Source: Kordiimonas sp. SCSIO 12610
GTDB lineage: Bacteria > Pseudomonadota > Alphaproteobacteria > Sphingomonadales > Kordiimonadaceae
Length of the DNA: 64,000 bases
Assembly (NCBI RefSeq): GCF_024398015.1
Contig: NZ_CP073747.1
Location: forward strand, 1,374,501 to 1,438,500
Direction: 5' to 3'
This document shows positions 1,034 through 33,421 of the stretch, in pieces. The notes beneath the pieces are model-generated. The model saw only the letters and a list, made by a program, of their open reading frames with translations, made no database searches and was not told where the DNA came from. Made by a program: the position numbers and the translations under genes. Position 1 is the first letter of the stretch. Each line of letters opens with the position of its first letter.

Positions 1034-1053
1034 TATCGGATTGAATTTAGGCC

Positions 1054-1929: not shown

Positions 1930-1945
1930 CCTGTTCTATCAGGCT

Positions 1946-3193: not shown

Positions 3194-3268
3194 TGGGGCG
3201 TCGCCAAGTGGTAAGGCACCGGTTTTTGGTATCGGCATCCGCAGGTTCGAATCCTGCCGCCCCAGCCA
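3194..3268 (+). tRNA. tRNA-Gln (anticodon TTG)
   Basis: A complete cloverleaf can be drawn. Acceptor TGGGGCG (3194-3200) pairs with CGCCCCA (3258-3264), and the D arm is GCC/GGC. The anticodon stem CCGGT/ATCGG has loop TTTTGGT, giving anticodon TTG, and the T arm GCAGG/CCTGC has loop TTCGAAT. The discriminator base is G and CCA is encoded at 3266-3268. It reads CAA glutamine codons. It sits alone between the epimerase promoter region and the MarR gene. Confidence 0.96.
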
Positions 3269-9463: not shown

Positions 9464-9555
9464 TCTCGATCATTCTGAACGAGAGGGGCTTATTTTCCCA
9501 TGATCCAAACGGACAATTTCTTGATAATTTCGGCCAATATGATATTTTTTATCTC

Positions 9556-10578
9556 ATGATTAATTTGAATTCGACCCGTCCACCAACCAGTTTGCGTATT
9601 CTCTGTGATGTTGCAGTTGAAATGGGAATGCCGCGTGAGGATTTTTTGAAGGGGACCGGTTTAAGTTTGGATGATTTGTATTCGCCCGATAGGCGAATTA
9701 CGCTGGCTCAAGAGGTTCGCGCGACCGAGAATTTTTTGGAAAGGCAATCGGATAGTTTTGGGATTGGAGTGACGGTTGGTAATCGCTTTCATGTGAACGT
9801 GTTTGGGATATGGGGGTTCGCAATCCTGAGTAGTCCAACCCTGCGTTCTGCGATTCAGACAGCCATCGATTATACAAGTATCTCGTTGATTTTAGCAGAT
9901 ATTGAGGTGGGTGAGTATAATGATACGCCACTGGTAAATTTTAAGATGGATCACTTGCCTGAAAGGGTACAGTTTTACGCATTTGAACGTCATTTGACTG
10001 TTACATTAGGCTTTATGAAAGAGTTGATCCCAAATTTCGACAAGCAACAGTTTAGAATACTGACGTCGGCAAAAGACAAGAGCTATCGTGAAAAATTGTC
10101 TGAGCTACTTGATGTTTCTGTAGGTTTTCACGAACAGTTAAATGCACTCGCCCTTGGGCCCTATAACCTTGACACACCCTTACCGAGGTCTGACCCCGCT
10201 ACACTGGACTATTGCCTCAAGCAGTGTAGCAAATTACTTGAAGAGCAGGGCGGGGTGCTGGCACACTGGTCACGACAGGTTCAGAATAAGCTCATGCAAG
10301 ATATGGGTGCTGGTATCAAATTACGCGATATTGCATGTAAACTTGGAACTACTGAGCGCACACTCAGGCGACGGCTTCAAGAGGAAGGAACCAGCTTTAG
10401 GGCAGTTTACACAGACGCACGGCTTGGAATTGCCCGGGAACTGCTCGAAACTGTTGGTTTGTCGGTAGAGGAAACAGCATGGCGTGTTGGCTACTCTGAA
10501 CCAGCCGCTTTTATAAGGGCTTTTTCTTCCCGGTTCAGTCGAACGCCCGGGAAAATAAAAAAACGCAACTCGCCCTAG
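9556..10578 (+). CDS. AraC-family regulator with OruR/ArgR-type N-terminal domain
   Basis: 340 residues from ATG 9556; an upstream ATG at 9445 would overlap the start of the divergent synthetase and adds an unconserved leader, so I reject it. Residues 10-200 or so fit the AraC arabinose-binding-like domain of the PF12625 type (IRGV-like strand, FGIWGFAILSSPTLRSAIQT). The C-terminal AraC HTH contains MGAGIKLRDIACKLGTTERT, the helix RTLRRRLQEEGTSFR and the second HTH VEETAWRVGYSEPAAFIRAF. Divergent orientation suggests that it activates the acyl-CoA synthetase gene in response to a fatty or aromatic effector. Confidence 0.88.
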   Translation: MINLNSTRPPTSLRILCDVAVEMGMPREDFLKGTGLSLDDLYSPDRRITLAQEVRATENFLERQSDSFGIGVTVGNRFHVNVFGIWGFAILSSPTLRSAIQTAIDYTSISLILADIEVGEYNDTPLVNFKMDHLPERVQFYAFERHLTVTLGFMKELIPNFDKQQFRILTSAKDKSYREKLSELLDVSVGFHEQLNALALGPYNLDTPLPRSDPATLDYCLKQCSKLLEEQGGVLAHWSRQVQNKLMQDMGAGIKLRDIACKLGTTERTLRRRLQEEGTSFRAVYTDARLGIARELLETVGLSVEETAWRVGYSEPAAFIRAFSSRFSRTPGKIKKRNSP

Positions 10579-14124: not shown

Positions 14125-15339
14125 TTAACCGAAAGATACATCCCGATTTCCTGATGCCACAGCAGCTAGGACGGAATTGATAGCCTGTCGGTTCATTGAT
14201 TTGGGTACAGCGTAGGAAGATCTGGCTTCTTTTATCGCGCTTTTTGCAATCGCGTCATAGTCTTTTTCATCCAAATCTTTGATGGATGCGGGGATGTTTA
14301 GTTTGTCCCCCAACGCATCAACGCGTGCGATAAATCTGGCTGTTAATTCCTGATCGTCAAGGCCTGCAATATTATCGCTACTTAGCATGCGCTCAAGATC
14401 AGCATAGCGTTTTGCACAGGCGGTTTTATTGTAGCGCAAGACACGGGGTAGAATGACTGCATTTGCTAGGCCATGAGGTGTGCCATAATGCGCACTCACT
14501 TGATGAGAAATGGCATGAACGTAACCAAGGCTCGATTTGGTGAAGGCAAAACCAGCTAGAAAAGACGCGATCGAAACCATTTCTCTTGCATTCAGGTTTT
14601 CGCCGTCTTCAAAAGCGATGGGTAGGTAGTCGAACAATAGTTTTATTGCGAGCGACGCATCTCTATCTGTATCCGTGAAGTTATTAAGGGATGTATAGGC
14701 TTCGATTGCATGTGTGAGTGCATCCATGCCTGTTGCAGCTGTCATCGCAGCAGGCAATGTTTTGAGCATTAATGGATCAAGTGCAGTCGCAATTGGAATA
14801 TATTTAGGATCAACGAAAAACTCTTTCGCGTGCGTTTCTGTATTTGAAATAACCGCAGCTGTCGTTACTTCTGATCCAGTGCCAGAAGTGGTTGGTGCGA
14901 CATAAAAGGGAAGAGGAGCTTTTTTCACTTTAAGAATGCCAACCAGCTTATCAGTTCGGTTGCCATTGGTCATCGCAGCGGCAATCACCTTGGCTGTATC
15001 AATAGCTGATCCGCCCCCTACAGTGAAAACACTGTCACAGTTATTTGCTTGGGCCAAGTCAATGCCCGCCTCAACCACAGCAAAAGTTGGGTTAGGAATA
15101 ATGCCATCAAAGATAGTTACTTCTGACCCTTCGTTCCTTAGAAACTGAAGTAAATCATCAAGCATGCCGTTTTGCAGAAGAAAACTGTCCGTAACGATCA
15201 AAGGGCGTTTGCTTCCGTTTTTGATCATTAACTCGGCTAACTTTTTTGTGGTTCCAGCCCCTGTTAATACCAGTGGTTTTTGGGGTGGAAAGAAGGTCGA
15301 CATGAACCTCAATGCATATGTGATCGGTGATTTAAACAT
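14125..15339 (-). CDS. Iron-containing (type III) alcohol dehydrogenase
   Basis: 404 residues from ATG 15339, which has AGGA at a suitable distance; the longer reading to 15492 would overlap the upstream aldehyde dehydrogenase. The NAD motif GGGSAIDTAK is at 108-117, and TTSGTGSEVT is at 150-159. The metal-binding set is visible as D206 and H210 (GMDALTHAIEAY), H275 (GYVHAISH) and H289 (GTPHGLAN). It should oxidise an alcohol to an aldehyde, or the reverse. It lies 86 bases downstream of an aldehyde dehydrogenase, which would take the product on to the acid. Confidence 0.93.
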   Translation of the reverse strand: MFKSPITYALRFMSTFFPPQKPLVLTGAGTTKKLAELMIKNGSKRPLIVTDSFLLQNGMLDDLLQFLRNEGSEVTIFDGIIPNPTFAVVEAGIDLAQANNCDSVFTVGGGSAIDTAKVIAAAMTNGNRTDKLVGILKVKKAPLPFYVAPTTSGTGSEVTTAAVISNTETHAKEFFVDPKYIPIATALDPLMLKTLPAAMTAATGMDALTHAIEAYTSLNNFTDTDRDASLAIKLLFDYLPIAFEDGENLNAREMVSIASFLAGFAFTKSSLGYVHAISHQVSAHYGTPHGLANAVILPRVLRYNKTACAKRYADLERMLSSDNIAGLDDQELTARFIARVDALGDKLNIPASIKDLDEKDYDAIAKSAIKEARSSYAVPKSMNRQAINSVLAAVASGNRDVSFG

Positions 15340-15425
15340 TGTCTTAATCCTGATTTTAATTTTGTGGCCACCTGCATGTAGGGAGTGGGGAGGAGGAGCC
15401 ATGCAGGCGGCCTGCGTTTTCAGAT

Positions 15426-16880
15426 TTATTTGTGTTTCCGGAAACGCTTGAACTGGAATTTCATATAAAGGTCGTACATACGGTTGCCCCACGGTGCGGC
15501 AATCATTGATGTTGCATTAAACTTACCTTTGCGCACGATACCTTTCGCTTTAGAGAAGTTGAGGAACCCTTCATGGCCGTGATAGTGACCCATGCCAGAT
15601 GGGCCGACACCGCCGAAAGGCATATCGTCTACCATAGTGTGGGTCATGACTTCGTTGATGCACACACCACCTGAATGGGTCTCACGAATAACCTTCTCTG
15701 CGCGGGCTTTATCCCAATCAAAATAATAAAGTGCGAGTGGACGATCGCGGTCGTTTACAAAGGCAATCGCCTCATCAAGCGTGTCATATGGGATTAGAGG
15801 CAATAACGGGCCAAAGATTTCTTCCTGCATAACCCGCATATCTTCGGTGACATTCTTGATTAAAGTCATTGGAAGTTTTCGGCCAGTATCAAACGTTTCC
15901 TGACCTTTATTGATCTCAACGATTTCTGCGCCTTTATCCTTTGCGTCCCGAATATTATCCAAGAGACGGTCGCGCTGGCGTTCAGTAATGATAGATGTGT
16001 AATCACTATTCATAACGTAGGTCGGATAGCTTGAAGATATCTCCTTGGCGAAGGCGCTTGCAAAGGCATCAAGTTTCGCTCGCGGCACCAGGATATAGTC
16101 GGGTGATACACACACCTGACCTGCGTTCAGGCCTTTACCAAAAGCGATCCGGTTAGCGGCCTCTTCGATTGGGAAGCTATCGTGGATGATGGCAGGAGAC
16201 TTCCCTCCAAGTTCAAGTGTTACCGGCGTCAGGTTTTCTGCTGCTGCCTTCATGACAATTTTGCCAACTTGTGTGGAGCCTGTGAAAACCAAATGGTCAA
16301 ACGGTAGTTTGGTGAATTCAGTAGCAACATCAACATCGCCGTTTACAAACACGACTTCATCTTCGCTGAAGTATTCTGCGAGCATGGCTTGAATAACCTC
16401 ACCGGTGCGCGGTGCAAATTCAGACCCTTTAATCATGGCACGGTTACCTGCGGCAAAGGCACCTGCAAGGGGTGAAATGCCAAGAAAGATCGGGAAATTC
16501 CAAGGTACAACGATCCCGACGACGCCGAGTGGTTGGTAATGAACCTTGATGTCACTTCCAAAAAGCATCAGTGGTGCGCTGCGTTTTGACTGTCTCATCC
16601 AGCTCCGCAGATTTTTCTGATTATAATGGATGCCTTCCAATATAGGTAATATCTCAGCAATAAGCGTTTCCGCTTCGGCGCGGCCATTAAAGTCCTGATC
16701 AACCGCTGCAATTAAGCGATCTTTGTAGTCAAGAATTGCGTTGTGCAAACGCTTTAAACGGTCAATGCGTTCATTGGCTGTTGGTGCCGGGTTTGCTTTG
16801 AAAGCGTTTCTAATGCGAGTGAGATGGCTTTTGAGGGCCAGGGCAGTTTCATTTTGAATCATGTTTCCATCTTTTGGCAT
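15426..16880 (-). CDS. Aldehyde dehydrogenase, coniferyl-aldehyde-dehydrogenase-like (copy 1)
   Basis: 484 residues from ATG 16880, which follows a strong AGGAGG; the frame continues upstream to 16943 without support. The NAD-binding region is GIVVPWNFPIFLGISP (122-137), the general base is E223 in TLELGGKSPA, and the nucleophile is C257 in LNAGQVCVSPDY. It falls in the short, membrane-associated ALDH branch annotated as coniferyl aldehyde or fatty aldehyde dehydrogenase. It aligns without gaps to the copy at 24453 over the first 260 residues. It is probably cotranscribed with the iron alcohol dehydrogenase downstream. Confidence 0.93.
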   Translation of the reverse strand: MPKDGNMIQNETALALKSHLTRIRNAFKANPAPTANERIDRLKRLHNAILDYKDRLIAAVDQDFNGRAEAETLIAEILPILEGIHYNQKNLRSWMRQSKRSAPLMLFGSDIKVHYQPLGVVGIVVPWNFPIFLGISPLAGAFAAGNRAMIKGSEFAPRTGEVIQAMLAEYFSEDEVVFVNGDVDVATEFTKLPFDHLVFTGSTQVGKIVMKAAAENLTPVTLELGGKSPAIIHDSFPIEEAANRIAFGKGLNAGQVCVSPDYILVPRAKLDAFASAFAKEISSSYPTYVMNSDYTSIITERQRDRLLDNIRDAKDKGAEIVEINKGQETFDTGRKLPMTLIKNVTEDMRVMQEEIFGPLLPLIPYDTLDEAIAFVNDRDRPLALYYFDWDKARAEKVIRETHSGGVCINEVMTHTMVDDMPFGGVGPSGMGHYHGHEGFLNFSKAKGIVRKGKFNATSMIAAPWGNRMYDLYMKFQFKRFRKHK

Positions 16881-17087
16881 TTCGGCCTCCTTTGTGTTCG
16901 TTGAGGTCGATATATGTTCTGAATGACACGTTGTCAAATACAAAATTTACAAAAAAATAAAAAAATGTAAACTAAAACTGAATTAAAAATCATAATAATG
17001 GTTATAAAGTTAATGAAGACTGGCTGTTTCTGTGGGTTTTTGGTATTTTCATAATTGTCTGCACGGAAATAGATCGGCATTAAATTT

Positions 17088-17773: not shown

Positions 17774-20266
17774 TCAAAATTTATATCGAATAGTAGCGCC
17801 ATAAAATCTAGGTTCCTGAAGGAAAGCGCCTACCGATCCAAGGTCACCAGCGGTTGGGCTTGTGAAGCCACGAAGAGGCACGTTAAAAGAAAGCCCTCTT
17901 GTTTGCTGGTCTGTAAGGTTGGTAACCCAGGCCTCAAATGTGATGTTTTCATTAAAGTGGATACCAGCGCGAAGGTTGATTTTTGCGTTTCCTGGCTGGA
18001 AGTCAAAGGCAAAGGGCACATCACTACCGACAACGGTTGGCTGCGTAGCGGTTCTACGACGGGATTCGTACTTAACCGACCCTGTGATGAAAAAGTCCAT
18101 CGTATCACTGAGGGGGGCTTCGTAGGTAAGGCTCGCTAGGCCATTGAAGCGCGACGAGTTTGTCAGTAATGATCCGCAAAGGTTCTGAGTTCTTATAAAT
18201 AGGTCCTCGGAAACCGTGCCTTGAAGGCCGTCGGCGCAATTTTCCGGGTAGCGTGCATTGGCATAAGTCCCAGACAGATTGAAAGAGAAAAATTCGTTTA
18301 AGTTGCCTTGTACCTCAAGTTCCACACCGGTGCTTCTTGCGCGTGGCACGTTAAAGGTTTGGAACTGAGCTCCCGTGAATTCCAAAACCTGAAAATCGCT
18401 TAGGTTCTGATGGAAAAACGCGAAGTTTGCGGTGATGCCATTTGGTAGTGTCGCTTTTAAACCTGCCTCATAGGAATCGATTTCTTCAGAGTTGAATATC
18501 GGGCTGGCACCGCCGGACGCAGCAGTAGGGTCCAGGTTAAAACCACCAGATTTGAAGCCGTGGGTGAAACCTGCAAAAAACAGAACATCATCGGAAACCT
18601 GGTAGCTACCTTTGATGGTATAGACGAGCTCGTCGTCTTCAAACCGATCATTGAAAGTCTGTGGCAGCGGTAAGAATTGAGCAAATGGACTATCGGCAAC
18701 AACAACAAACGGGAAACAGCCAAAACCAACCACTAACGGCGTGAGCGCGTCAGGCACCGGAATAGGGGCGCCAGGCAATACCGCGCCTTGAAGGCCTGCA
18801 AAACAAGCATTTGACTGCGCAGACAGCTGTGTAAACTGTCCGTCCTTACTTTCATCCACATATCTAAGGCCAACGGTTAAGCTGATATCTTCTGTGATAT
18901 CGAGAATGTTGTGGGTGAAGATTGAAAAGGATTTGCCATTCTGGGTGAAAAGGTTGTTGGCAAAATCACCTGTATGATCCACACCACCGGTGAAAAGAGC
19001 GAATGGATTGGTGCCAAATGGAAAGGCCGCTGGAGCGCCTGCAGCACCTAATATGGAAGCGTCGATCGTAGGCTGAAAATCATCCCCGAGAACGAAACTT
19101 TGAACTTCTGAAATGTCTTCGTCTGAATAGTATGCGCCGATGAGCCAGTTTAGGCGTGAATTAAACGCTTCCCCCTGAAGACGAACTTCGTGGGTGAAAT
19201 TTTCGATTGTTGTATCTGAACCAAACCGGAAAATGTCTGCGGCAGTAAAGTCACTATCCTGATCGGAAATAGCATCGAATTCTCGGTAGGCGCCGATATA
19301 AGTGAGGGTCGCAGCACCAAAATCCTTTTGAATTTCAAGCGAGACACCGAACTGATCTGACGGGTTGAAAAACTGATCTGCGTTTGAACGACGGTTATCC
19401 AGCGCCTCTAACCCCACATCGGTGACGCCGCCATTTGCTGGTGTTACGCCTGCAACGTCAAAAAGAGGGGCAAAAGGTGTTTCTGTGAGCAAAACAGCGT
19501 CACAGCATTCATCATCTGTCTCTGCATAATCAAAAATGGCTCTAACCTGCCAACTGTCATCGGGTTCCCATAACAACTGCCCGCGGAGAACATAACGGTC
19601 TCTAGAACCACTTTCTGCACCCGTTGAACTTTGCAGGAAGCCATCACGGCTTCGGTATGCCCCCGAGAGCCTTATGCCAAGTTCGTTAGTTACGAGAGGA
19701 AAGCTGACGCCGCCCTGAAAGTTTACCTGGTCGAAGTTGCCGTAGGTCGCATTGGCAAACCCTTCAAGTTCATCAAGATTCGGTTTTTTTGTGGTGACGT
19801 TAAGAGCGCCAGCGGATGTATTTCGACCAAAAAGGGTTCCTTGTGGGCCCCGTAATACTTCGATTTGGTTGACATCCAAAAGGTCGGTTAAAGCTACACC
19901 GGGTCGGGATAGGAAGACTCCGTCAAGAAATACCCCGACAGAACTTTCAAGGCCGATATTATTACCTGTGGTGCCTACACCCCTGATGCGAAGCGTGGTA
20001 CCCCCGGTTTCAGTTTGGGCACTATTGATATTAAAACTTGTAGACAGGCTTGTAAGTGCGACTATGTCATTTACGCCTTCGCGTTCGAGTGCGCTCTGAC
20101 TGAGGGCAGTGACGGCGATTGGCACGTCTTGAATACTTTCTGCGCGCCTTGTGGCAGTAACGATAATCTCATCTACTGTCGTGTTATCGGTTTCTTGTGC
20201 AGATGCTATCCCACTATTTAGCGATAGTGTAAGCGCGCTCGTTGCAAGCAAAGTCCATTTCGTCAT
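17774..20266 (-). CDS. TonB-dependent outer-membrane receptor (catabolic island)
   Basis: 830 residues from ATG 20266, backed by GGAGGAG; a longer frame reaches 20305. A signal peptide ends near GIASAQ. The plug begins with VDEIIVTATRRAESIQDVPI, and the plug motif GTLFGRNTSAGALNVTTKKP is intact. The C-terminal barrel ends in the outer-membrane signature RFYGATIRYKF with terminal Phe. This is the sub-type common in Sphingomonadales-like catabolic loci, active in uptake of bulky or hydrophobic substrates. Its position beside oxidases, the OYE and the hydratase suggests that it imports the island's substrate. No siderophore genes are nearby. Confidence 0.93.
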   Translation of the reverse strand: MTKWTLLATSALTLSLNSGIASAQETDNTTVDEIIVTATRRAESIQDVPIAVTALSQSALEREGVNDIVALTSLSTSFNINSAQTETGGTTLRIRGVGTTGNNIGLESSVGVFLDGVFLSRPGVALTDLLDVNQIEVLRGPQGTLFGRNTSAGALNVTTKKPNLDELEGFANATYGNFDQVNFQGGVSFPLVTNELGIRLSGAYRSRDGFLQSSTGAESGSRDRYVLRGQLLWEPDDSWQVRAIFDYAETDDECCDAVLLTETPFAPLFDVAGVTPANGGVTDVGLEALDNRRSNADQFFNPSDQFGVSLEIQKDFGAATLTYIGAYREFDAISDQDSDFTAADIFRFGSDTTIENFTHEVRLQGEAFNSRLNWLIGAYYSDEDISEVQSFVLGDDFQPTIDASILGAAGAPAAFPFGTNPFALFTGGVDHTGDFANNLFTQNGKSFSIFTHNILDITEDISLTVGLRYVDESKDGQFTQLSAQSNACFAGLQGAVLPGAPIPVPDALTPLVVGFGCFPFVVVADSPFAQFLPLPQTFNDRFEDDELVYTIKGSYQVSDDVLFFAGFTHGFKSGGFNLDPTAASGGASPIFNSEEIDSYEAGLKATLPNGITANFAFFHQNLSDFQVLEFTGAQFQTFNVPRARSTGVELEVQGNLNEFFSFNLSGTYANARYPENCADGLQGTVSEDLFIRTQNLCGSLLTNSSRFNGLASLTYEAPLSDTMDFFITGSVKYESRRRTATQPTVVGSDVPFAFDFQPGNAKINLRAGIHFNENITFEAWVTNLTDQQTRGLSFNVPLRGFTSPTAGDLGSVGAFLQEPRFYGATIRYKF

Positions 20267-20367
20267 ATAAAGCTCCTCCCCGAACTTAATGTGGGCCATC
20301 ACCACAATGGCCAGTTAAATCACCTAATCAGCGGCTCTCCTTACCGCTGGTAAACAAATTGATCTAT

Positions 20368-21102
20368 TCATGTTATCGAAAACTCGATATTACCCAATGC
20401 GCCGAAATCGGCTCGATAAGAGCCTTTATCTGCCGCAGGAGTGGCTCCGCATGCGCCGGTCATGAACAAGGTATTCTGGGTAACTTTATGACCGCGCTTT
20501 TGCGCTTCCCCTAGCATCCAGGAAACCCCATTCTGTGGGCCTTCAAGCGCCTGAGAAGTCATAGCCTGATTGACAATTTCATCATTTTTGAAAAGGGTTA
20601 TCGAAGACGAATTAAAGTCATCTTCCCATGGTATGAATGTGCCAATAATGAATTTTTCAGTACCCATGTTTGAAATTACAAGATTTGAGGCATTCAAATC
20701 TTCCTGACGTGTGAAGCAAAGGCGTACAAACTCGATGGCAGGCGCAATAGAAACTGGTTTGCCAGTATGATCCGCTCTTACGGCAACTTCACATTCGATA
20801 ATGCGCTTTTCAATGTATGGGATGTTGCAGCTAGAATCCAATTGGGCGTTAGCGTATAAACTACCAATCAACGCATGCTTTAGACCTAGATATTGTTGAA
20901 CAGGTTCTGCTGTGACACCTGCCTTGATACCCCCGACATCAGAAACTTTATTAGTGACTTTGTGCTGTAAATCGTATGCTGTATCCAGGTTGCAGCTCAG
21001 ATTGAATTCAGGCCAATCTGCACCGCTTTTGATCGCGGTCGCTAATGTCTCTGCGATCTGAGCGGGGTCGTTAGCAGTATCGTTTGCCATGCTAATCACC
21101 AT
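20368..21102 (-). CDS. 2-keto-4-pentenoate hydratase-like (FAH superfamily)
   Basis: 244 residues. The MhpD-like layout shows in SGADWPEFNLSCNLDTAYDL at the N-terminus, GGIKAGVTAEPVQQYLGLKH, and YIEKRIIECEVAVRA, which carries metal-binding Glu residues, followed by IAPAIEFVRL. The family hydrates 2-hydroxypentadienoates or decarboxylates oxalocrotonate late in aromatic or steroid ring catabolism. The start is ATG 21102, inside an ATGGTGA overlap with the SDR stop, or ATG 21090. Coupling to the SDR implies joint function. The exact reaction is open. Confidence 0.82.
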   Translation of the reverse strand: MVISMANDTANDPAQIAETLATAIKSGADWPEFNLSCNLDTAYDLQHKVTNKVSDVGGIKAGVTAEPVQQYLGLKHALIGSLYANAQLDSSCNIPYIEKRIIECEVAVRADHTGKPVSIAPAIEFVRLCFTRQEDLNASNLVISNMGTEKFIIGTFIPWEDDFNSSSITLFKNDEIVNQAMTSQALEGPQNGVSWMLGEAQKRGHKVTQNTLFMTGACGATPAADKGSYRADFGALGNIEFSIT

Positions 21103-21821
21103 TTTTCACTGAAGGGGCGCATTTCAATTTCGTGCGTCCATGCGGACTTGGGCTGATTGTGAATATGCCAATAGCTGTCTGCAACTGCGTCTGGAGACAG
21201 GACACCGTTTTCTCCCAAGCTATCCATATATTCACCGTAACGCGAACGGGTACGTTCCGAATTAACGACACCATCAATAATAGCATGTACAACATGAACA
21301 CCTTTTGGTCCGTAATCACGTGCGAGTGCCTGCGCAAGCATTCTGAGGCCTGCTTTCATCGCGGCGAAGTGCGCAAAGTTCGGGCGGCCTCTCAATGATG
21401 CAGATGCGCCTGTGAAGAAGAGGCTTCCCTCGCCTTGTTCTTCAAGAAGGGGTATCGCCCGCTTTGCTGTTAGGAAGGCACCATAAGACCCGATACGCCA
21501 AAACTGTTCATAGGTCTCTGACGTTAATTCTGCGAAAGGGATCACTGCATTGTTGCCTGCATTAAATAGTACCGCCGACAACGGGCCGAGTTTGGCAACA
21601 TGTTCAAACAACGCATCCTGGTCTTTTTCTTGTGTCACATCGACCTGCATCGCTTCAGCTGAATGACCAGCCGTTTTGATTTCGTCTGCAACGCTTTCAA
21701 CTTTTTCAAGCGTACGGCCTGTCACCACAACATGATGGCCTTCGGCTGCAAACTTCCTGGCAAGCGCGCCACCAATTCCTTGGGAAACGCCAGCCCCTAA
21801 AATAACGACAGTTCCATTCAT
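21096..21821 (-). CDS. Short-chain dehydrogenase/reductase family protein lacking the catalytic Tyr
   Basis: 241 residues with an SDR Rossmann start (ILGAGVSQGIGGALARKF) and the NAG motif as LFNAGNNA (85-92). The Ser region is FFTGASASLRG. In the YxxxK position it reads FAAMK, so F152 replaces the catalytic tyrosine while K156 is kept. The codon at 21366-21368 reads TTC on the minus strand. Either the enzyme uses another acid, or it is a non-oxidoreductase SDR. It overlaps the hydratase downstream and follows the tautomerases, so it is part of the same unit. Confidence 0.85.
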   Translation of the reverse strand: MNGTVVILGAGVSQGIGGALARKFAAEGHHVVVTGRTLEKVESVADEIKTAGHSAEAMQVDVTQEKDQDALFEHVAKLGPLSAVLFNAGNNAVIPFAELTSETYEQFWRIGSYGAFLTAKRAIPLLEEQGEGSLFFTGASASLRGRPNFAHFAAMKAGLRMLAQALARDYGPKGVHVVHAIIDGVVNSERTRSRYGEYMDSLGENGVLSPDAVADSYWHIHNQPKSAWTHEIEMRPFSEKW

Positions 21822-21859: not shown

Positions 21860-22264
21860 TTAGCTGCTGGCTAGTTTGGCTTCATGCGCGGCAAGCCATT
21901 CCTCTTCTTCTCCGGGCTCAGGCAACAGGTCGCCACCTTCCATAACCCAACTGGCCGGTGTATCTGTTGTTACGGCAACGATATCATCAAGCTCAATACC
22001 GGTATGGTGATTGATCGAAGCACGCATGCGTTCGACAATTTCAGCTTTCTGTTCATCAGTACGCCCGGCGCGAATTTGGCCTAATAAAAGCGCTTGACTG
22101 TCGCCGATAGGAACATGGGTGGCTTCTTCAAAGAAAAAAGCATGTACGAATGTTGGTGGTGCAGCGGTAACTTCACAATGAATATCTGTTATGTCTTTTG
22201 CGATCGCTGCTTTCGCTTCGTTGGTGATCAGGCCTTTACGGCTGTTACATACATAAAGTGGCAT
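21860..22264 (-). CDS. Tautomerase superfamily protein, cis-CaaD/Cg10062-like
   Basis: 134 residues. After removal of Met the N-terminus is Pro1 (PLYVCNSRKG), the catalytic base of the superfamily. H28 occupies the place of the cis-CaaD active-site His, and R63 and R66 lie in QIRAGRT, matching the Arg pair of that family. VMEGGDLLPEPGEEEEW resembles the cis-CaaD C-terminal region with its catalytic Glu. Such proteins tautomerise or hydrate unsaturated carboxylates, sometimes haloacrylates. It lies 12 bases after a second, Pro-less tautomerase-like gene. A dehalogenase role is possible but unproven. Confidence 0.82.
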   Translation of the reverse strand: MPLYVCNSRKGLITNEAKAAIAKDITDIHCEVTAAPPTFVHAFFFEEATHVPIGDSQALLLGQIRAGRTDEQKAEIVERMRASINHHTGIELDDIVAVTTDTPASWVMEGGDLLPEPGEEEEWLAAHEAKLASS

Positions 22265-22276
22265 CGTCTATTCCCC

Positions 22277-22594
22277 TTAAGCTTGTGGGTCAGCGATTAC
22301 GCCGACAACTTCATTGATTGATAGTCCTGTGCGCTCAAGCCACACATCGCAGAGCTTTTGTAAAAGTGGAACCCGTTCGGATGTCTCTAATTTTTTTGGT
22401 GATTGCATAGACACAAGAATTGATGTTGACGGTACACCTGCTGTAAAGCCACTTTTTTCCGGTACTTCAATCCATACCACCTCGGCAGCTGAGCCAAATG
22501 ATTCTGATGTGAACTGTGTCATATCATCCTTTAGCTGAGCTTCTAATTCTGATGAAACCTGTCCTGCCTGAACAAGGCACATTACTGGTATCAT
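22277..22594 (-). CDS. Small tautomerase-like protein without Pro1
   Basis: 105 residues with a strand-helix-strand pattern and a C-terminal block (ERTGLSINEVVGVIADP) that parallels the tautomerase downstream (HTGIELDDIVAVTTDTP). The start is firm (GGAGGG six bases before ATG 22594) and gives MIPVMC, so the residue after Met is Ile and the catalytic Pro1 is missing. It may be an inactive partner subunit, as in heteromeric tautomerases, or a distinct activity. Family placement rests on weak similarity and gene order. Confidence 0.6.
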   Translation of the reverse strand: MIPVMCLVQAGQVSSELEAQLKDDMTQFTSESFGSAAEVVWIEVPEKSGFTAGVPSTSILVSMQSPKKLETSERVPLLQKLCDVWLERTGLSINEVVGVIADPQA

Positions 22595-22627: not shown

Positions 22628-23851
22628 CTAAGATGCACGAACTCGCTTTACAGCGCGACCATTTTTCCAGAATTTATATAAAACTTCTGCTGCGGATAGC
22701 GCACCACGGGCTTTTCGCTTGGGCGCTTTTCCTTTTGCAATACGTTGAAGTTGCAATGTGTACCAACTGATTTCCATGATCGCCATGGCATCCAATTTCT
22801 TAATTCCAGATTTGATTGGCTCAACAGTAGAGCGATATCCAGGATCTTGGAGGGCATGGGTGGCAAATTCTGGGTCAACAGCGAATGGGCGAGCAACGCC
22901 CACAATGTCAACAGCGCCGCTTTGAATAGCTTCGTTCATGCCAGCTGCGCTTCGGAAACCGCCCGTTACCATTATTGGTGTATCAATTTTCTTTTTGATT
23001 TTTTCCGCATATTCAAGGAAGTAGGCTTCGCGTTTGCGAGTGCTTTCCTTGATGGCACCTGTTCTATTAATTGGATTTTCCCAACTTCCACCAGATATTT
23101 CTATTAGGTCAAAACCGAGATCATCGAGAACTTCTGCTGTTAGCAGAGATTCTTCTTCGCCGAATCCACCCTTTTGGAAATCAGAAGAGTTAATTTTGAT
23201 TCCGACGTTAAAGTCTTTTCCTGTTTTGTCTCTGACGGATTTATAAAGTTCGCGAACAAACCGTATGCGGTTATCAAAAGAGCCGCCCCACTTGTCAGTC
23301 CGGCGATTGTGATGGGGGGACAGGAATTGTCCGATAAGATACCCATGCGCTCCGTGCAGTTGGATGCCTGAAAACCCCGTGGCTTCACAGCGTTCTGCCG
23401 ACTTGCCGAAACGTTCAATTATATCTTCAATCTCAGGCTCTGTAAGCTCCCTTGGCGAGACGAACATTTCGTTCGGGATCGGCACCACGGACGGTGAGAC
23501 TGGCTCGTCATTCACCATTTTAGGGGATTGCTTACCAGGGTGACTGATTTGCGGCCAAATATGCGTGTCGGTTGAGTTGCCAGTTGCAGCCCATTGAGCA
23601 AGCATATCGCCGTTTGCTTCATGAAGGGCATCGACAACGAGGGGCTCGTTCATATGACGACCATCAACCATCATGTTACCCGTTACCAACAGGCCTGCGC
23701 CGCTTTTGCTCCAAGCCTCATAGAGCGCAATATGATCTTTAGTAATCTTGCCATCAGGGGTGGCCATCGCTTCGTTCATCGCGGCTTTTGAAATTCGGTT
23801 TTTTAGGACCGTTCCTGATTTGAGCTTCAATGGTTCCGCTAGAGTAGCCAT
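22628..23851 (-). CDS. Old yellow enzyme family FMN oxidoreductase
   Basis: 407 residues of TIM-barrel NADH:flavin oxidoreductase. It has an OYE start (PLKLKSGTVLKNRISKAAMN), the HPGKQSP loop and the substrate-binding His pair in GIQLHGAHGYLIGQFLSPHH, then NRRTDKWGGSFDNRIRFVRE, IMVTGGFRSAAGM and GVARPFAVDPE at the phosphate-binding end. No C-terminal FeS/FAD domain is present, so it is the short form. OYEs reduce activated C=C bonds of enones. It is first in the minus-strand set (OYE, tautomerases, SDR, hydratase) and divergent from the HxlR regulator, whose operators adjoin it. Confidence 0.93.
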   Translation of the reverse strand: MATLAEPLKLKSGTVLKNRISKAAMNEAMATPDGKITKDHIALYEAWSKSGAGLLVTGNMMVDGRHMNEPLVVDALHEANGDMLAQWAATGNSTDTHIWPQISHPGKQSPKMVNDEPVSPSVVPIPNEMFVSPRELTEPEIEDIIERFGKSAERCEATGFSGIQLHGAHGYLIGQFLSPHHNRRTDKWGGSFDNRIRFVRELYKSVRDKTGKDFNVGIKINSSDFQKGGFGEEESLLTAEVLDDLGFDLIEISGGSWENPINRTGAIKESTRKREAYFLEYAEKIKKKIDTPIMVTGGFRSAAGMNEAIQSGAVDIVGVARPFAVDPEFATHALQDPGYRSTVEPIKSGIKKLDAMAIMEISWYTLQLQRIAKGKAPKRKARGALSAAEVLYKFWKNGRAVKRVRAS

Positions 23852-23891: not shown

Positions 23892-23947
23892 TAGTTTTAT
23901 CATGAAACTACTTGATTAATAACAAAACTAGTTCTATTATGCAACTG
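23892..23947. promoter_or_regulatory. Tandem HxlR-type operators
   Basis: TAGTTTTATCATGAAACTA (23892-23910) has a perfect six-base dyad (TAGTTT/AAACTA). A second copy, TAGTTCTATTATGCAACTG (23929-23947), matches 15 of 19 bases, 37 bases further on. They fill the gap between the divergent OYE and HxlR genes, so the HxlR protein probably controls both directions. Confidence 0.7.
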
Positions 23948-23962
23948 TTTTTGGAGGGTGAA

Positions 23963-24463
23963 ATGAAACAGACGTCTTTTGCTGAGATGAGATGTTCGGT
24001 CGCGAGGGCTTTGGATCAAGTGGGATCATGGTGGTCGTTGCTGATTATTCGTGATGCCATGATGGGCGCCCGTCGCTTTAAAGATTTCGAAAGTTCGCTC
24101 GGAATTGCAAAAAATACCCTGACAAACAGGCTAAAAGAATTGCTGGACAATGGTATCCTGAAGCAAGTGGAGCCAGAGAATGGCAGTAAATATCTCGATT
24201 ATGAATTGACCGAAAAAGGCAGAGATCTGGCGCCAATCATTATGACCTTGGCTCAATGGGGCGATAAATGGTCTGTTCACGAAGATGGTCCATCGTTTGA
24301 ATTAAGAAATAAGCGATCTGATGAAGAAATCAGCCGACTTTGGCCGCGCGATCATGACGGAACTGCCATTGATCTGGCTGATGTCATGCTCTCGCGTGAA
24401 GGGCGGAACGGGCAAGAAACTCGAACGATTGCACCAGAGGCAGGAGGCTTGAATGACGATTGA
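23963..24463 (+). CDS. HxlR-family transcriptional regulator
   Basis: 166 residues from ATG 23963, placed by GGAGGGTGAA directly upstream; the frame extends to 23912 but that part covers the operators. It has the HxlR core: CSVARALDQVGSWWSLLIIR, DAMMGARRFKDFE, the recognition helix GIAKNTLTNRLKELLDNGIL and the wing DYELTEKGRDLAPI. The conserved early Cys (C11) often acts as a redox or electrophile sensor in this family. Its end overlaps the start of the aldehyde dehydrogenase by 11 bases, so the regulator heads the rightward catabolic operon. Confidence 0.9.
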   Translation: MKQTSFAEMRCSVARALDQVGSWWSLLIIRDAMMGARRFKDFESSLGIAKNTLTNRLKELLDNGILKQVEPENGSKYLDYELTEKGRDLAPIIMTLAQWGDKWSVHEDGPSFELRNKRSDEEISRLWPRDHDGTAIDLADVMLSREGRNGQETRTIAPEAGGLNDD

Positions 24464-25916
24464 AGGCGGAAAATTTGAGGCCGATGTAAGGGGTGAATTA
24501 AATCAACTTCTTCTCGCTCAGAAGAATGCATTTCTCAAAGACCCTATGCCGAGTAGGAAAGAGCGCATTAGACGGCTCGATAAAATTCACAATCTTCTTG
24601 TCGATAACCGTGATGCTTTTGCAGAAGCTGTTAATAAAGATTTTTCTGGTCGGCCAAAAGCTGAAACTGACCTCGCCGAAATAATGCCACTGTTGGACGG
24701 TATTGCATACTACCGCAAACGTGTCGGAATATTAATGAAGCCGGAAAGGCGTGGTGTTCCGATAACCGTTATGCCGGCAAAAGTAGAGGTTAGATACCAG
24801 CCTAAAGGTGTGATTGGGATTGTCGTGCCATGGAATTTCCCGATCTTTCTCGCATTGTCGCCGGTTATTGGTGCGATTGCCGCTGGGAACAGGGTCATGA
24901 TGAAGGGGTCCGAGTTTGCACAGAATACGAGCGAACTTCTTAAGGATCTGCTTGCCAAAACATTCTCCCCTGATGAGATCACAATGGTGACAGGTGGGGT
25001 CGATGTGGCGTCAGAATTTACGAGGTTGCCTTTTGATCATATGGTCTTCACAGGCTCCACTACGGTTGGACGTAAGGTAATGCAGGCTGCTGCTGAAAAC
25101 CTTACGCCTGTGACCTTGGAACTTGGGGGCAAATCACCAGCGATTATCCATCCTGATTTCCCAATTGCAGAAGCTGCAAATCGGATTGCCTTTGGCAAAG
25201 GGATAAATGCTGGCCAAGTCTGCGTTTCCCCGGATTATATTCTATGCCCGAAAGAAAAAGTAAATGAGTTTACTGATGCCTTTATCGAGGCAACGAAAAA
25301 GAGCTACCCAACTCTCAGGAACAATGAAGATTTCACCGCAATTATTACCGAGAGGCAAAAAGAGCGATTGGAATCATACATTGATGATGCATTAGCAAAA
25401 GGTGCAGACCTTTTGACGGTTAACCCTGAAGATGAAGACCTCTCTGGCACCAGAAAGCTGCCGACAACGCTTGTTTTGGGGGCGACTGAAGATATGCTTG
25501 TGATGCGCGAAGAAATCTTTGGCCCAATTCTGCCTGTATTGCCTTACGATAAGCTTGAGGATGCGATTGCTTATGTCAATGATCGACCGCGCCCACTTGC
25601 TCTTTACTATTTCGACTGGAACACAAGCCGGGCCGATGAAGTGTTGGGTCAAACCCATTCAGGCGGCGCCTGTATCAACGATACTATGAGCCATGTGATG
25701 TCTGATGATATTCCGTTTGGAGGGGTTGGTCCTTCTGGAATTGGGCACTATCACGGTGAAGAAGGTTTCAAGGCTTTCAGCCACGCAAAAGGTGTTGTCA
25801 GAAAAGGGCGCATAAATGCAGCTGCCTTCATTGGGCCGCCTTGGGATAATATGATGTTTAAGGGTTTGATGGCGCTCCAGGAACTGCGTTTCCGTCGTCG
25901 TCGGATCAAGGACTAA
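24453..25916 (+). CDS. Aldehyde dehydrogenase, coniferyl-aldehyde-dehydrogenase-like (copy 2)
   Basis: 487 residues. The NAD region is GIVVPWNFPIFLALSP (122-137), the general base is E223 in TLELGGKSPA, and the nucleophile is C257 in INAGQVCVSPDY. It is a close paralogue of the protein at 15426. ATG 24453 follows GGAGG and overlaps the HxlR stop, and only four bases separate its stop from the GMC oxidase start, so regulator, ALDH, oxidase and dioxygenase form one operon. It probably oxidises the aldehyde made by the GMC enzyme or the dioxygenase. The C-terminus is basic (RFRRRRIKD). Confidence 0.93.
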   Translation: MTIEGGKFEADVRGELNQLLLAQKNAFLKDPMPSRKERIRRLDKIHNLLVDNRDAFAEAVNKDFSGRPKAETDLAEIMPLLDGIAYYRKRVGILMKPERRGVPITVMPAKVEVRYQPKGVIGIVVPWNFPIFLALSPVIGAIAAGNRVMMKGSEFAQNTSELLKDLLAKTFSPDEITMVTGGVDVASEFTRLPFDHMVFTGSTTVGRKVMQAAAENLTPVTLELGGKSPAIIHPDFPIAEAANRIAFGKGINAGQVCVSPDYILCPKEKVNEFTDAFIEATKKSYPTLRNNEDFTAIITERQKERLESYIDDALAKGADLLTVNPEDEDLSGTRKLPTTLVLGATEDMLVMREEIFGPILPVLPYDKLEDAIAYVNDRPRPLALYYFDWNTSRADEVLGQTHSGGACINDTMSHVMSDDIPFGGVGPSGIGHYHGEEGFKAFSHAKGVVRKGRINAAAFIGPPWDNMMFKGLMALQELRFRRRRIKD

Positions 25917-25920
25917 GCCC

Positions 25921-27513
25921 ATGAGACCAGCCAGTGCATCCTATGATTATGTGATTGTTGGAAGCGGCTTCGGCGGATCTGTTAGCGCACTTAGATTGTC
26001 GCAAAAGGGATACCGGGTCCTGGTTGTTGAAAAAGGACGTCGTTTTGAGACCAAAGATATTTCAAAGGGAACCACACGACCTGGCGCCTGGATATGGGAT
26101 CCGAAAATTGGCCTAAATGGTATAATGAAACTTACCTTTCTCAAGCATGTTGGCGTCATGTCGGGCGTGGGTGTTGGAGGTGGTTCGTTAGTATATGGTG
26201 CAACACTACCGACACCAAAAGATAGCTTCTTTCAAACCGGGTCGTGGGCAGGGCTAAATAATTGGAAAGACGCTCTGGAGCCACATTACCAAACTGCTCT
26301 TTCAATGCTGGGTGCCACTAAAAATCCTCGTCTGACAGCAGCGGATTTTGTGCTTCGCGACTTAGCTCGTGAAGTAGGGCGTGAAGACACATTTGAAGCC
26401 ACGAATGTGGGGATATTTTTCGGCGATGATGGGGAAGCAGGCCAAGAGGTTGCTGATCCATATTTCGACGGCAAGGGTCCAAAACGCACCGGATGTATCC
26501 AGTGCGGTGACTGCATGACGGGCTGTCCATATGGTGCAAAAAACTCACTGGACAAAAACTACCTTTATCTTGCTGAAAAGCTAGGAGCTGAAGTTCTCCC
26601 TGAAACCGAAGTTTTAGACGTTAAACCCGCAGGTGCCCGTGATGGCAGTGAAGGGTATTTCATTAAAGCACAATTTGGTAAAGAAAAGCCGCAAATCGTT
26701 AAAGCTAACGGTGTTATAATGGCCGGCGGTGTTATGGGTACTGTTCCCCTTCTTCTAAAACTTCGCGATGCGGGGTCTCTGCCGCGCCTTTCCGAAAAAC
26801 TTGGTAAGGATGTGCGTACCAATAACGAGTCTCTCACATCAGTTACAGCGGTTGGAAAAGATCCCAAATTTAATGACGGCGTCGCTATTGGATCTATTTT
26901 TCATCCTGATGAACACAGCCATGTCGAGCCTATAAGGCTGGGGGCAAAATCGGGGCTGTGGCGTTTGATGCTATTGCCGATGGCAACGGGGGGATCGCTG
27001 ATCGCTCGTTTGGGGTCATTATTTAAAAATTGGATCACGGACCCGATCCGTGGAACCAAAGCAATATTTACTTCAAGCTTTGGCCCTCGAACTATTTGCC
27101 TTCTTTTCATGCAGCATCTCGACAGTAGTTTGTCGATAGAACGTGGAAGGTTTGGTCGGTTACAATCTAAATTAGAGCCCGGGCAACTGCCGCCGTCTGC
27201 GGATATTCCCTTATCGAATAAATTAGCCCACCTTACCGAGAAGATTATTGGAGGTAAAGCAAGTCGGCTTGGCGTCGAGATATTAAGGGGGGCGCCAGCG
27301 ACCGCGCATATATTAGGCGGCGCAGTCATGGGCAAAGATGAAACTACTGGCGTTATTGATGCTGAAAATCACGTGTTTAATTATCGGAACCTTTTTGTTT
27401 GTGATGGCTCCGCCATTTCGGCAAACCCCGGTGTTAATCCGTCCCTCAGTATTACCGCTATCACCGAGCATGCGATGAGCAAAATCCCGCACAAATCAGT
27501 TGGAAAGGAATAA
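25921..27513 (+). CDS. GMC-type FAD oxidoreductase (cholesterol-oxidase-like) with four-Cys motif
   Basis: 530 residues. The FAD dinucleotide motif VGSGFGGS is at 13-20, with the ADP-ribose acid at VVEKG. GVGVGGGSLVYGA (82-94) is the second flavin block. Residues 192-202 read C-x2-C-x2-C-x3-C (CIQCGDCMTGC, then PYGAK), a motif shared by cholesterol-oxidase-like and related GMC proteins. The C-terminal GMC block AHILGGAVMGKD and NPGVNPSLSITAITEHAM are intact. It should oxidise an alcohol, plausibly a sterol or other bulky one. It is translated between the ALDH and the dioxygenase. Confidence 0.88.
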   Translation: MRPASASYDYVIVGSGFGGSVSALRLSQKGYRVLVVEKGRRFETKDISKGTTRPGAWIWDPKIGLNGIMKLTFLKHVGVMSGVGVGGGSLVYGATLPTPKDSFFQTGSWAGLNNWKDALEPHYQTALSMLGATKNPRLTAADFVLRDLAREVGREDTFEATNVGIFFGDDGEAGQEVADPYFDGKGPKRTGCIQCGDCMTGCPYGAKNSLDKNYLYLAEKLGAEVLPETEVLDVKPAGARDGSEGYFIKAQFGKEKPQIVKANGVIMAGGVMGTVPLLLKLRDAGSLPRLSEKLGKDVRTNNESLTSVTAVGKDPKFNDGVAIGSIFHPDEHSHVEPIRLGAKSGLWRLMLLPMATGGSLIARLGSLFKNWITDPIRGTKAIFTSSFGPRTICLLFMQHLDSSLSIERGRFGRLQSKLEPGQLPPSADIPLSNKLAHLTEKIIGGKASRLGVEILRGAPATAHILGGAVMGKDETTGVIDAENHVFNYRNLFVCDGSAISANPGVNPSLSITAITEHAMSKIPHKSVGKE

Positions 27514-27517: not shown

Positions 27518-28729
27518 ATGTCGATACAAGTAACACCAAATGGAGAGGCTTGTGGTGCTATTGTGGCTGGTATTGATCTTTCAAACCCAGTTTCAAGCGA
27601 AGAGATTGCTGAAATACGTAAAGCATGGTTGGAGCATCATGTTCTTATATTCCCAAAGCAGGTTTTGACTGATGATGACCTGGAGAGGGTAAGTCTCTAT
27701 TTCGGTGAATTTGGAGTTGATCCCTTTATCAAGCCGATTGAAGGCCACAAGAATATTATCGCAATTCAGCGTGAAGCCGATGAAACCAGCCCTATCTTTG
27801 CGGATATTTGGCACACGGACTGGAGTTTTCAGGAAGTGCCGCCCGCCGGTACCTGCCTTTATTCCGTCGACGTTCCCCCCGAAGGCGGTGATACCCTCTA
27901 TGCCAATCAACATCTGGCGTTAGAGAAAATGCCTGAGGACCTTCGAAAGCGCCTGGAAGGAAAATATGCCTTTCATTCCGCTATGATGGGATATTCCAAG
28001 AAAGGTTCATACGGTGACAAGGATGAAGGCCGAAGCATGGTAATCGAGGCGTCAGATGACGCGCTCGAAAAACAGGCACATCCTATTATCAGGCAGCACC
28101 CGGAAAGCGGAAAAGAGGCCATTTTTGGAACAGCTATTGCCTATATGGTCGGCATTGAAGGTATGCCTCAAAAAGAAGGAATGGACCTTTTGATGGAATT
28201 GCAGCGTTGGCAGGTTCAAGAAGAATTTGTCTATCGTCACAAATGGGAAAATAACATGTTAGTTATTTGGGATAACCGAAGCGTTTTGCATAAGGCAACG
28301 GGTGGTTATGAAGGGTATCGCCGCGAATTACATCGAACCACAGTCGCAGATGATGTGTCCCGCTGGAAAGAAAAACCCGTCATGAGAAATACATCGATTA
28401 GTGAAGACCAGTCAGAGTCTGTTGCAAAAGAGCGTATTTCAATATCAGGCGCTGATGATATTATGGCTCAACTTAAGCCTGCCGTCGATACATTTGGCGG
28501 CTTCCCCAATCCTGTGAAAATGAATTTTGGAACTGCTGGTGTATTCCATATCTCCGGTAAGGACATTGTAAGGGAAGACAGACAAGCCGACTGCACAATT
28601 TCTATGGCACCTGAAGTGTTTGAGTTAGTAATAAACGGCGATATAGACGTAATGGGGGCCGTGATGGAAGGCAAGGTCCAGGTTGAAGGTGACTCTTCAA
28701 TTGCCATCAGTTTGCAGGGATTATTCTGA
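27518..28729 (+). CDS. TauD/TfdA 2-oxoglutarate dioxygenase fused to SCP2 sterol-carrier domain
   Basis: 403 residues from ATG 27518 (AAGGA upstream). Residues 1-285 are a TauD-type Fe(II)/2-oxoglutarate dioxygenase: H99 and D101 in WHTDWSF, distal H258 in VLHKATGGY, and R273 in ELHRTTV for 2-oxoglutarate. From about 303 to 403 there is an SCP2-like lipid-carrier domain (TISMAPEVFELVINGDID, VMGAVMEGKVQVEGD). The fusion suggests hydroxylation of a hydrophobic ligand that the SCP2 domain binds or delivers. It is the last gene of the HxlR operon. Both domains are recognisable; the substrate is inferred. Confidence 0.88.
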   Translation: MSIQVTPNGEACGAIVAGIDLSNPVSSEEIAEIRKAWLEHHVLIFPKQVLTDDDLERVSLYFGEFGVDPFIKPIEGHKNIIAIQREADETSPIFADIWHTDWSFQEVPPAGTCLYSVDVPPEGGDTLYANQHLALEKMPEDLRKRLEGKYAFHSAMMGYSKKGSYGDKDEGRSMVIEASDDALEKQAHPIIRQHPESGKEAIFGTAIAYMVGIEGMPQKEGMDLLMELQRWQVQEEFVYRHKWENNMLVIWDNRSVLHKATGGYEGYRRELHRTTVADDVSRWKEKPVMRNTSISEDQSESVAKERISISGADDIMAQLKPAVDTFGGFPNPVKMNFGTAGVFHISGKDIVREDRQADCTISMAPEVFELVINGDIDVMGAVMEGKVQVEGDSSIAISLQGLF

Positions 28730-29205: not shown

Positions 29206-29688
29206 ATGTTTCACTCTATTGACCTAGATAGTATTCCAGAAGCACATCCGGTTTATGTGTTTAATCGCTTCTGGAGTGATCATTTAAGTGCAGATGGCAT
29301 CATGCGTCGGTCTGAGTTCGATCCGATGGATGTGCCGCAAATTATTCCCTGGATGAATGTTTTTGATTATGATCCTGGCGCAATCGGTAACGAGTTTTCG
29401 TATCGCTTGTCTGGTACAGGTATCGTGAAATTATTTGGGGGAGAGCTTACGGGCCATAAGCTTGGGCATATGATGCAACAACAGGGCCTTAAAGAGCGGC
29501 TCGCTGCAGATATGTTTAGATGCCTTGAAAGCAAAATACCTGCGTTTAGCGAGTCCTATGTGGTATTAGAGGGGGTTGATCCGGTCGATATATACCGCGG
29601 TCTTTTCCCTGTTTCCACAAATGGCACGTCAATCGATCAATTATTTGCAGTGTTGGCGGATAAGAACCTGAAATTGACTGTTGAATAG
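29206..29688 (+). CDS. PAS_5-family PAS-like protein (second of three)
   Basis: 160 residues, a single PAS_5 domain. HPVYVFNRFWSDHL, SEFDPMDVPQIIPWMNVF and FSYRLSGTGIVKLFGGELTG parallel the protein at 6848 almost motif for motif, including the Pro-rich DPMDVP turn and RLSGT strand. There is no output domain or membrane segment. It lies after the dioxygenase operon but is separated from it by an AT-rich spacer, so it is probably expressed on its own. The function is unknown. Confidence 0.78.
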   Translation: MFHSIDLDSIPEAHPVYVFNRFWSDHLSADGIMRRSEFDPMDVPQIIPWMNVFDYDPGAIGNEFSYRLSGTGIVKLFGGELTGHKLGHMMQQQGLKERLAADMFRCLESKIPAFSESYVVLEGVDPVDIYRGLFPVSTNGTSIDQLFAVLADKNLKLTVE

Positions 29689-32545: not shown

Positions 32546-33421
32546 ATGATGGATAGTGAAATGCAGGTTAACCTCTCGATTGATTTGGTACGAACATTTG
32601 TGACGGTTGTTGATTGTGGGAATATAACTCAAGCGTCTAAGTATTTACTGCGCGGTCAATCAGCGATTTCAATGCAGATTAAACGCCTGGAGGACTTGCT
32701 TGGGAAAAAGCTGTTAACGCGGTCCAAAAGCGGCGTTGTCATGACGGGAGAGGGCGAACGTTTTTTGCCGGATGCTCGTGAACTTCTGAAATTGAACGAT
32801 GATATTTACATGAAATACACGAATGACAGTGTTGCGGGCACTGTTCGAATTGGTGCACCAGAAGATTTCGCAACCAGCCATTTGCCGCAAATCCTTTCGA
32901 GCTTCTCAAATACATATCCAAATGTTGCCCTTGAAGTGACATGCGAGTTAACGATGCAGCTATTGGACGATTTCGGCGCAGGTAAACTGGATTTGGCCTT
33001 GGTGAAACAGGACCCGGATGGATCGCCGCTCGGCATGCAGGTATGGCGCGAACCATTGGTATGGGTTGCATCGGATAGCGCTTCTGTTTCAAGCATGCCA
33101 GTGGTTCCACTTGCGTGTGCACCGAACCCCTGCGTTTACCGCGAAAGGGCGATTACGGGATTGAAACAGCTGGGTCGTGAATGGCGAGAAGCTTATATTT
33201 GTACATCCCTGTCCGGGATACACGCTGCGGTCCGTGCGGGCTTAGGGATTGGTGTGTTACCAAAAGAAATGGTTCCAAGTGATCTTAGGATTGTGAATTC
33301 TGAAAAAGCAGGCCTGCCAATGCTACGGGCGACTGAAATGGCGTTGATCGAGGCTAAAAACCTAAGTAAAGCGGCCGAACGATTGCGGGAATACATTATT
33401 CAGGAACTCGAACATAAGTAG
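32546..33421 (+). CDS. LysR-family transcriptional regulator
   Basis: 291 residues. The N-terminal HTH is VRTFVTVVDCGNITQASKYL then LRGQSAISMQIKRLEDLLGK, and the effector domain begins with GTVRIGAPEDFATSHLPQIL. The C-terminal LysR fold includes HAAVRAGLGIGVLPKEM. Starts at 32546 or at the third ATG (32561) are both possible; neither has a strong ribosome site. It is divergent from icd across 92 bases, the usual arrangement for a LysR protein and its target, so control of icd is a reasonable inference. Confidence 0.9.
   Translation: MMDSEMQVNLSIDLVRTFVTVVDCGNITQASKYLLRGQSAISMQIKRLEDLLGKKLLTRSKSGVVMTGEGERFLPDARELLKLNDDIYMKYTNDSVAGTVRIGAPEDFATSHLPQILSSFSNTYPNVALEVTCELTMQLLDDFGAGKLDLALVKQDPDGSPLGMQVWREPLVWVASDSASVSSMPVVPLACAPNPCVYRERAITGLKQLGREWREAYICTSLSGIHAAVRAGLGIGVLPKEMVPSDLRIVNSEKAGLPMLRATEMALIEAKNLSKAAERLREYIIQELEHK

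Follow-up and report, generated by a model that had tools for sequence, protein, structure and literature searches.

Fusion of a TauD/TfdA dioxygenase with an SCP2 domain in Kordiimonas sp. SCSIO 12610 and its two-gene counterpart in Sessilibacter corallicola

The fusion gene and its domains

The window, a 64,000-nucleotide stretch of the Kordiimonas sp. SCSIO 12610 genome (NZ_CP073747.1, positions 1,374,501 to 1,438,500), contained an intact ORF at 27518–28729 on the + strand, which started with an ATG at 27518, ran for 404 codons including the stop, and encoded 403 aa. The ORF, Pfam and PDB sequence matches identified it as a TauD-SCP2 fusion gene. Its parts, all on the + strand, were a TauD/TfdA 2-oxoglutarate dioxygenase domain of residues ~1–281 (27518–28360; Pfam, alignment, model and Foldseek), a linker of residues 282–308 predicted to be disordered in the model (28361–28441), and an SCP2 domain of residues ~311–403 (28448–28726; Pfam, PDB sequences and models).

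Pfam analysis placed TauD/TfdA (PF02668) on residues 7–275 with 196 bits (E 1.5e-57; curated cut-off 27) and SCP2 (PF02036) on residues 353–403 with 34.2 bits (E 3.4e-8; curated cut-off 21.3), the latter match being confined to the C-terminal half of its profile (positions 50–100 of 101). A 94-position SCP2 profile of three rows, namely the window, Sessilibacter and one Hyphomonadaceae SCP2 (A1), aligned over most positions with free alphaproteobacterial SCP2 proteins. The PDB sequence search gave RdpA as the best dioxygenase match (E 2.9e-45), and residues 346–402 matched the SCP2 chains 2c0l, 1qnd and 1c44, the best E value for an SCP2 chain being 4.8e-5 with the whole protein and 4.6e-6 with the domain alone. 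The TauD-SCP2 fusion proposed by the sequence-only reading was thus confirmed, both domains scoring above the Pfam cut-offs and the PDB sequences agreeing. A tail from a family other than SCP2 was ruled out, since the Pfam and PDB sequence matches were both to SCP2. The same reading had placed the SCP2-like part at residues 303–403; the SCP2 identity held, while the start was set slightly too early, and the domain was limited to the boundaries given above because a helix of residues 312–326 opened the SCP2 part in both structure models.

Residues H99, D101, H258, R269 and R273 were invariant in 37 of 37 aligned rows; the numbering that had been claimed for H99, D101, H258 and R273 was correct. 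By analogy with the TauD family, H99, D101 and H258 are taken to be the iron triad (HxD...H), with the 2-oxoglutarate arginine presumably at R269/R273. The score against the NCBIfam taurine dioxygenase profile (NF007104) was 181 bits against a cut-off of 313; therefore, the protein was not considered a taurine dioxygenase proper.

Two AlphaFold2 models were built from different alignments, one of 24 rows rich in SCP2 sequences and one of 35 rows rich in dioxygenases (L012, which is partial, L077 and L080 were left out of the fold and tree alignments, and L050 and L051 also of the 35-row fold). The 35-row model had a mean pLDDT of 84.8, with residues 1–280 mostly above 90, residues 282–308 below 50, and a weaker SCP2 half in which ten-residue blocks from 311 onward averaged 61–83. 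The 24-row model had pLDDT values of 84–95 across residues 311–370, a poor dioxygenase half, and a mean of 65.7. Both models predicted the same order of elements in residues 312–402: a helix, four strands, two helices, a strand and a helix. Foldseek comparison of the dioxygenase half gave TM-scores to target of 0.86–0.93 for RdpA, AAD-1 and TauD chains (RdpA/AAD-1: E 8.5e-31, TM-score to target 0.87–0.93), and the dioxygenase part, as modelled, has the double-stranded beta-helix fold of the TauD/TfdA family. Among the matches listed in the PDB structure searches there were dioxygenases only and no SCP2 chains; the predicted SCP2 fold of the C-terminus is based on the sequence families together with the predicted order of elements. 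The viral structure library returned phage TauD-like models and weak matches.

Among solved structures, the nearest to the dioxygenase part, in both sequence and fold, were those of the (R)-phenoxypropionate 2-oxoglutarate dioxygenases RdpA and AAD-1 (PDB 6d0o, 5bk9). These enzymes differ from the window protein in having no SCP2 domain, and share ~31–33% identity with it, so that their substrate is not transferable to it. The taurine dioxygenase TauD and the alkylsulfate dioxygenase AtsK have the superfamily and the fold in common with the window protein; unlike it, both are without SCP2. The C-terminus belongs with the SCP2 family, which occurs free and fused, as it passed the Pfam cut-off and matched chains 1qnd and 2c0l. 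Known enzyme partners of SCP2, among them the thiolase of SCPx, 17-beta-HSD4/MFE-2 and HSDL2, are not 2-oxoglutarate dioxygenases. The gene is a real, rare and well-bounded domain fusion, in which two known families are newly combined.

Distribution of the fusion and the split gene pair of Sessilibacter

Searches with the dioxygenase part gave matches at E 1e-60 or better in 94 of the 396 genomes of the window's order, its own included. Only one of the 94 matches, that of the window itself, continued into SCP2; the others stopped at or before query residue 302. These relatives without SCP2 were 51–65% identical to the window's dioxygenase, and since they exist without a fused SCP2, the domain is dispensable for the basic reaction. 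Within the family, 5 of 29 genomes matched the dioxygenase at 1e-30, which were the window's own and four at 33–37% identity; the only other genome of the genus had no match at this threshold. A gyrA-like gene (named by eye) adjoined the orthologue without SCP2 in some genomes (L007 5285–8843, L054 9265–12847, L055 9494–13655), with an overlap of ~11 bases at both L007 and L054, and lying one gene apart from it in L055.

No SCP2 was present at 41 other dioxygenase loci (L006–L046), of which L012 and L013 reach contig edges, L014–L017 are only 33–37% identical, and L014–L046 were viewed with flanks of 1.5 kb. A scan of public genomes by short peptide patterns gave nine loci, with SCP2 only at that of Sessilibacter (two of the nine, L012 and L013, are cut off by the ends of their contigs). 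Plasmid records matched at 1e-20 in 374 cases and phages in three, none covering 80% of the protein. A second fusion was thus not found in the 396 genomes of the order, the public genome scan, the plasmids or the phages, and a literature search that excluded most subscription papers found no paper on TauD-SCP2 fusions.

At 1e-14, the three-row SCP2 profile matched 7 of the 341 genomes searched in the Sessilibacter order and 69 of the 385 in the window's class. Scores of 169.7 bits for the window and 167.7 bits for Sessilibacter, both of which are rows of the profile, were followed by at most 97 bits for all others. No dioxygenase was found beside the other SCP2 genes at the six loci examined in the Sessilibacter order and the 29 examined in the window's class. 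The window's genome also encoded a free SCP2 protein of 103 aa (L053 8254–8565), which shared 36% identity over 75 aa with the fused domain.

The nearest relatives of both domains were two adjacent genes of Sessilibacter corallicola (Gammaproteobacteria, Cellvibrionaceae; locus L005). The dioxygenase gene (L005 7989–8849) encodes 286 aa and lies on the same strand as the SCP2 gene (L005 8895–9179), which encodes 94 aa and has a ribosome-binding-like AGAGG ahead of its ATG. The window protein shared 68% identity with the TauD protein over 278 aa, and 61% identity with the SCP2 protein over 90 aa. Maximum-likelihood trees paired the window with Sessilibacter both for TauD (100/99, 44 rows) and for SCP2 (100/100, 37 rows), with Sessilibacter flagged for an unusual make-up in the former and as a long branch in the latter. 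Between the two species, pN was 0.196 and pS 0.837 for TauD, and pN 0.280 and pS 0.667 for SCP2, the synonymous sites being saturated or nearly so; both domains are under constraint at the protein level. Because the two parts are fused here, are neighbours in Sessilibacter, and are mutual nearest relatives in both parts, these comparisons give good support to the view that TauD and SCP2 work together. A Hyphomonadaceae genome held the next nearest SCP2 (44–45%) and a near dioxygenase on different contigs; this was given no weight because the genome is one of only eight examined in this way.

On plasmid QKH54 (AM157767), the related dioxygenase gene of the hcfABC region (L050 7944–11341; 40% identity) overlaps a putative hydratase gene, and a putative dehydrogenase and a regulator are also present. 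There was no SCP2 among the 14 annotated QKH54 features shown, and no paper on hcfABC or QKH54 was found in the literature search.

The Sessilibacter genes share one frame and are separated by a single TAG and 45 bases. Loss of the stop alone would fuse two adjacent genes of the same frame, and the fusion most likely arose by the joining of two neighbouring genes. The window linker exceeds the Sessilibacter spacer in length and does not resemble it, so that more than one step separates the fusion from the exact Sessilibacter state. The linker contains an in-frame ATG at residue 289 (window 28382), placed after a GGAAAG 11 bases upstream; judged from the letters, translation could start there internally and yield SCP2 as a separate product of the one message. 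The joining might then have been neutral, with the products still working separately, perhaps through the start at codon 289. The shared frame and single stop of the Sessilibacter pair, and the motif and ATG in the linker, agree with such an event, while the length and sequence of the linker put it more than a single-base change away from the Sessilibacter spacer, and we regard neutral joining as improbable.

That a sequence or assembly error in the linker masks a stop codon, and that the window really holds two genes, is highly improbable. The restriction of the fusion to one genome, and the presence in the linker of several codons that a single substitution would turn into a stop, would suit an error; the record, however, is a single contig of 3.5 Mb, and the frame stays open for 404 codons.

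The surrounding gene cluster and its genomic setting

The fusion was the last gene of a + strand set in the order HxlR regulator, aldehyde dehydrogenase, GMC oxidase and fusion, with spacings of -11, 4 and 4 bases. The first gene (23912–24463) encodes an HxlR-type transcriptional regulator by Pfam, and the start of the aldehyde dehydrogenase gene (24453–25916) overlaps it. The third (25921–27513) encodes a GMC oxidoreductase that is cholesterol-oxidase-like; its score against the NCBIfam profile of cholesterol oxidase proper (NF058674) was 553 bits against a cut-off of 850, and this assignment was rejected.

Divergent from this set, on the - strand, family profiles identified an old-yellow-enzyme-type FMN oxidoreductase (22628–23851). 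It was followed on the same strand by a small protein with no Pfam match (22277–22594), whose homologue lies beside the Sessilibacter tautomerase gene (32%), by a tautomerase-family protein (21860–22264; 47% to Sessilibacter), a short-chain dehydrogenase (SDR; 21096–21821; 44% to Sessilibacter), and a 2-keto-4-pentenoate hydratase-like protein (20368–21102) that matched weakly, below the cut-off, and had no Pfam match. Also on the - strand were a TonB-dependent receptor found by Pfam (17774–20305), a second aldehyde dehydrogenase (15426–16943; 62% to the single Sessilibacter one), an iron-containing alcohol dehydrogenase (14125–15492), and an acyl-CoA synthetase (CoA ligase; 7487–9463), which scored above the NF005714 cut-off and was 44% identical to that of Sessilibacter. 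An AraC-type regulator was encoded on the + strand (9445–10578; 34% to one in Sessilibacter). PAS_5 domain proteins were present near both edges of the cluster region (6848–7393 and 29206–29688).

Besides the fusion, eight window genes had homologues inside ~19 kb of Sessilibacter. Both window copies of aldehyde dehydrogenase, 60–62% identical to one Sessilibacter gene, were counted among the eight, and the GMC enzyme was 54% identical to its homologue there. The gene order of the cluster differs between the two, and the DUF1302, DUF1329, enoyl-CoA hydratase and GST genes of Sessilibacter had no window homologue at 1e-5. A weak match (22%) between a regulator outside the cluster (32546–33421) and a Sessilibacter regulator was given no weight. 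Literature searches on DUF1302/DUF1329 and on Sessilibacter yielded no substrate.

A GMC search at E 1e-100, which scored at most 3–4 candidates per genome, matched a single genome out of 385 in the window's class, the one that contains the window, and 23 out of 341 in the Sessilibacter order. Among the relatives in the Sessilibacter order, that of Sessilibacter was the nearest (55%), and the next were at most 47% identical. None of 11 other GMC loci, examined with 1.5 kb flanks, contained a homologue of the dioxygenase, of SCP2 or of aldehyde dehydrogenase; an AraC-type regulator related to that of the window was present at three of them.

Comparison with a genome of the same genus showed collinearity over window positions 8–3268, ending at the 3' end of a tRNA-Gln gene (3194–3268), and again from 29855 on. 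Between these flanks there were ~26.6 kb in the window against ~54 kb of other DNA in the same-genus genome, which places the cluster in a variable region that adjoins a tRNA gene. Of the 54 kb, the 14 kb nearest the right junction was read at the protein level and had no match to any cluster protein; the remaining 40 kb was compared at the DNA level only. An LpxR-like gene (4691–5740) had a 74% DNA match on another contig of the same-genus genome, so that at least one gene of the region is present elsewhere in the genus.

The variable region and the distribution of the GMC gene favour lateral gain, and the catabolic cluster was probably acquired in this way. Other features do not help this reading. 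The GC content of the region was unremarkable for the window, no integrase was found among the proteins of 3395–30416 scanned with Pfam (a few short ORFs left out), and no stretch of the tRNA-Gln of at least 13 bases recurred to its right within the window.

Proposed role of the SCP2 domain

The reading preferred here, which we consider evenly poised between right and wrong, is that the protein is an Fe(II)/2-oxoglutarate dioxygenase whose flexibly linked SCP2 domain binds a hydrophobic substrate, in a laterally gained catabolic pathway. The SCP2 domain would bind a compound of long-chain, isoprenoid, sterol-like or acyl-CoA type and raise its local concentration at the iron site. The dioxygenase would then hydroxylate the substrate, possibly at a position adjoining an ether or ester oxygen, by analogy with RdpA or AtsK; the GMC enzyme and aldehyde dehydrogenase would oxidise the alcohol and the aldehyde, and activation of the resulting acid would fall to the CoA ligase.

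The best functional parallel is offered by the type III alkylsulfatases SdsA1, Pisa1 and SdsAP, which have a C-terminal SCP-2-like domain and lipid-like substrates (PMC5426288). They differ from the fusion in their metallo-beta-lactamase catalytic fold and in catalysing hydrolysis rather than oxygenation.

The SCP2 domain may, as the sequence-only reading proposed, present or deliver the substrate to the iron centre. Two points count against a carrier function of this kind: the linker between the domains is predicted to be disordered, and most dioxygenase relatives are without SCP2. The preferred reading is also weakened by the differing gene order of the two clusters, the Sessilibacter genes that lack a window homologue, the flags on Sessilibacter in both trees, and the cholesterol oxidase score below its cut-off. 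The further proposal of a self-loading hydroxylase, in which a 2-oxoglutarate dioxygenase is fed by its own SCP2 domain and opens an aerobic route for a marine lipid or sterol-like compound together with the cholesterol-oxidase-like enzyme, is tentative and rather doubtful. If true, such an enzyme would have no counterpart among the search results obtained here, and the route would be undescribed.

The SCP2 domain might instead serve another step, holding a CoA-ester or alcohol intermediate for the GMC enzyme, the aldehyde dehydrogenase or the CoA ligase, or docking the protein to the membrane, with the fusion fixing the stoichiometry. A dioxygenase family that mostly does without SCP2 and a linker predicted to be flexible fit such a role, as do the CoA-ligase and GMC genes in the clusters and the free SCP2 of Sessilibacter, which could serve any cluster enzyme. 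In both species, however, SCP2 is directly behind the dioxygenase and no other cluster gene, and service at another step is considered unlikely.

The gene cluster is suggestive of an uncharacterised pathway that acts on a hydrophobic compound. Having the two parts fused in one bacterium and adjacent in an unrelated one provides a natural pair of constructs for testing delivery. If SCP2 loads the dioxygenase, it would be a simple route for a soluble 2-oxoglutarate oxygenase to water-insoluble substrates, and ligand hand-over by carrier domains could readily be studied with the fused protein.
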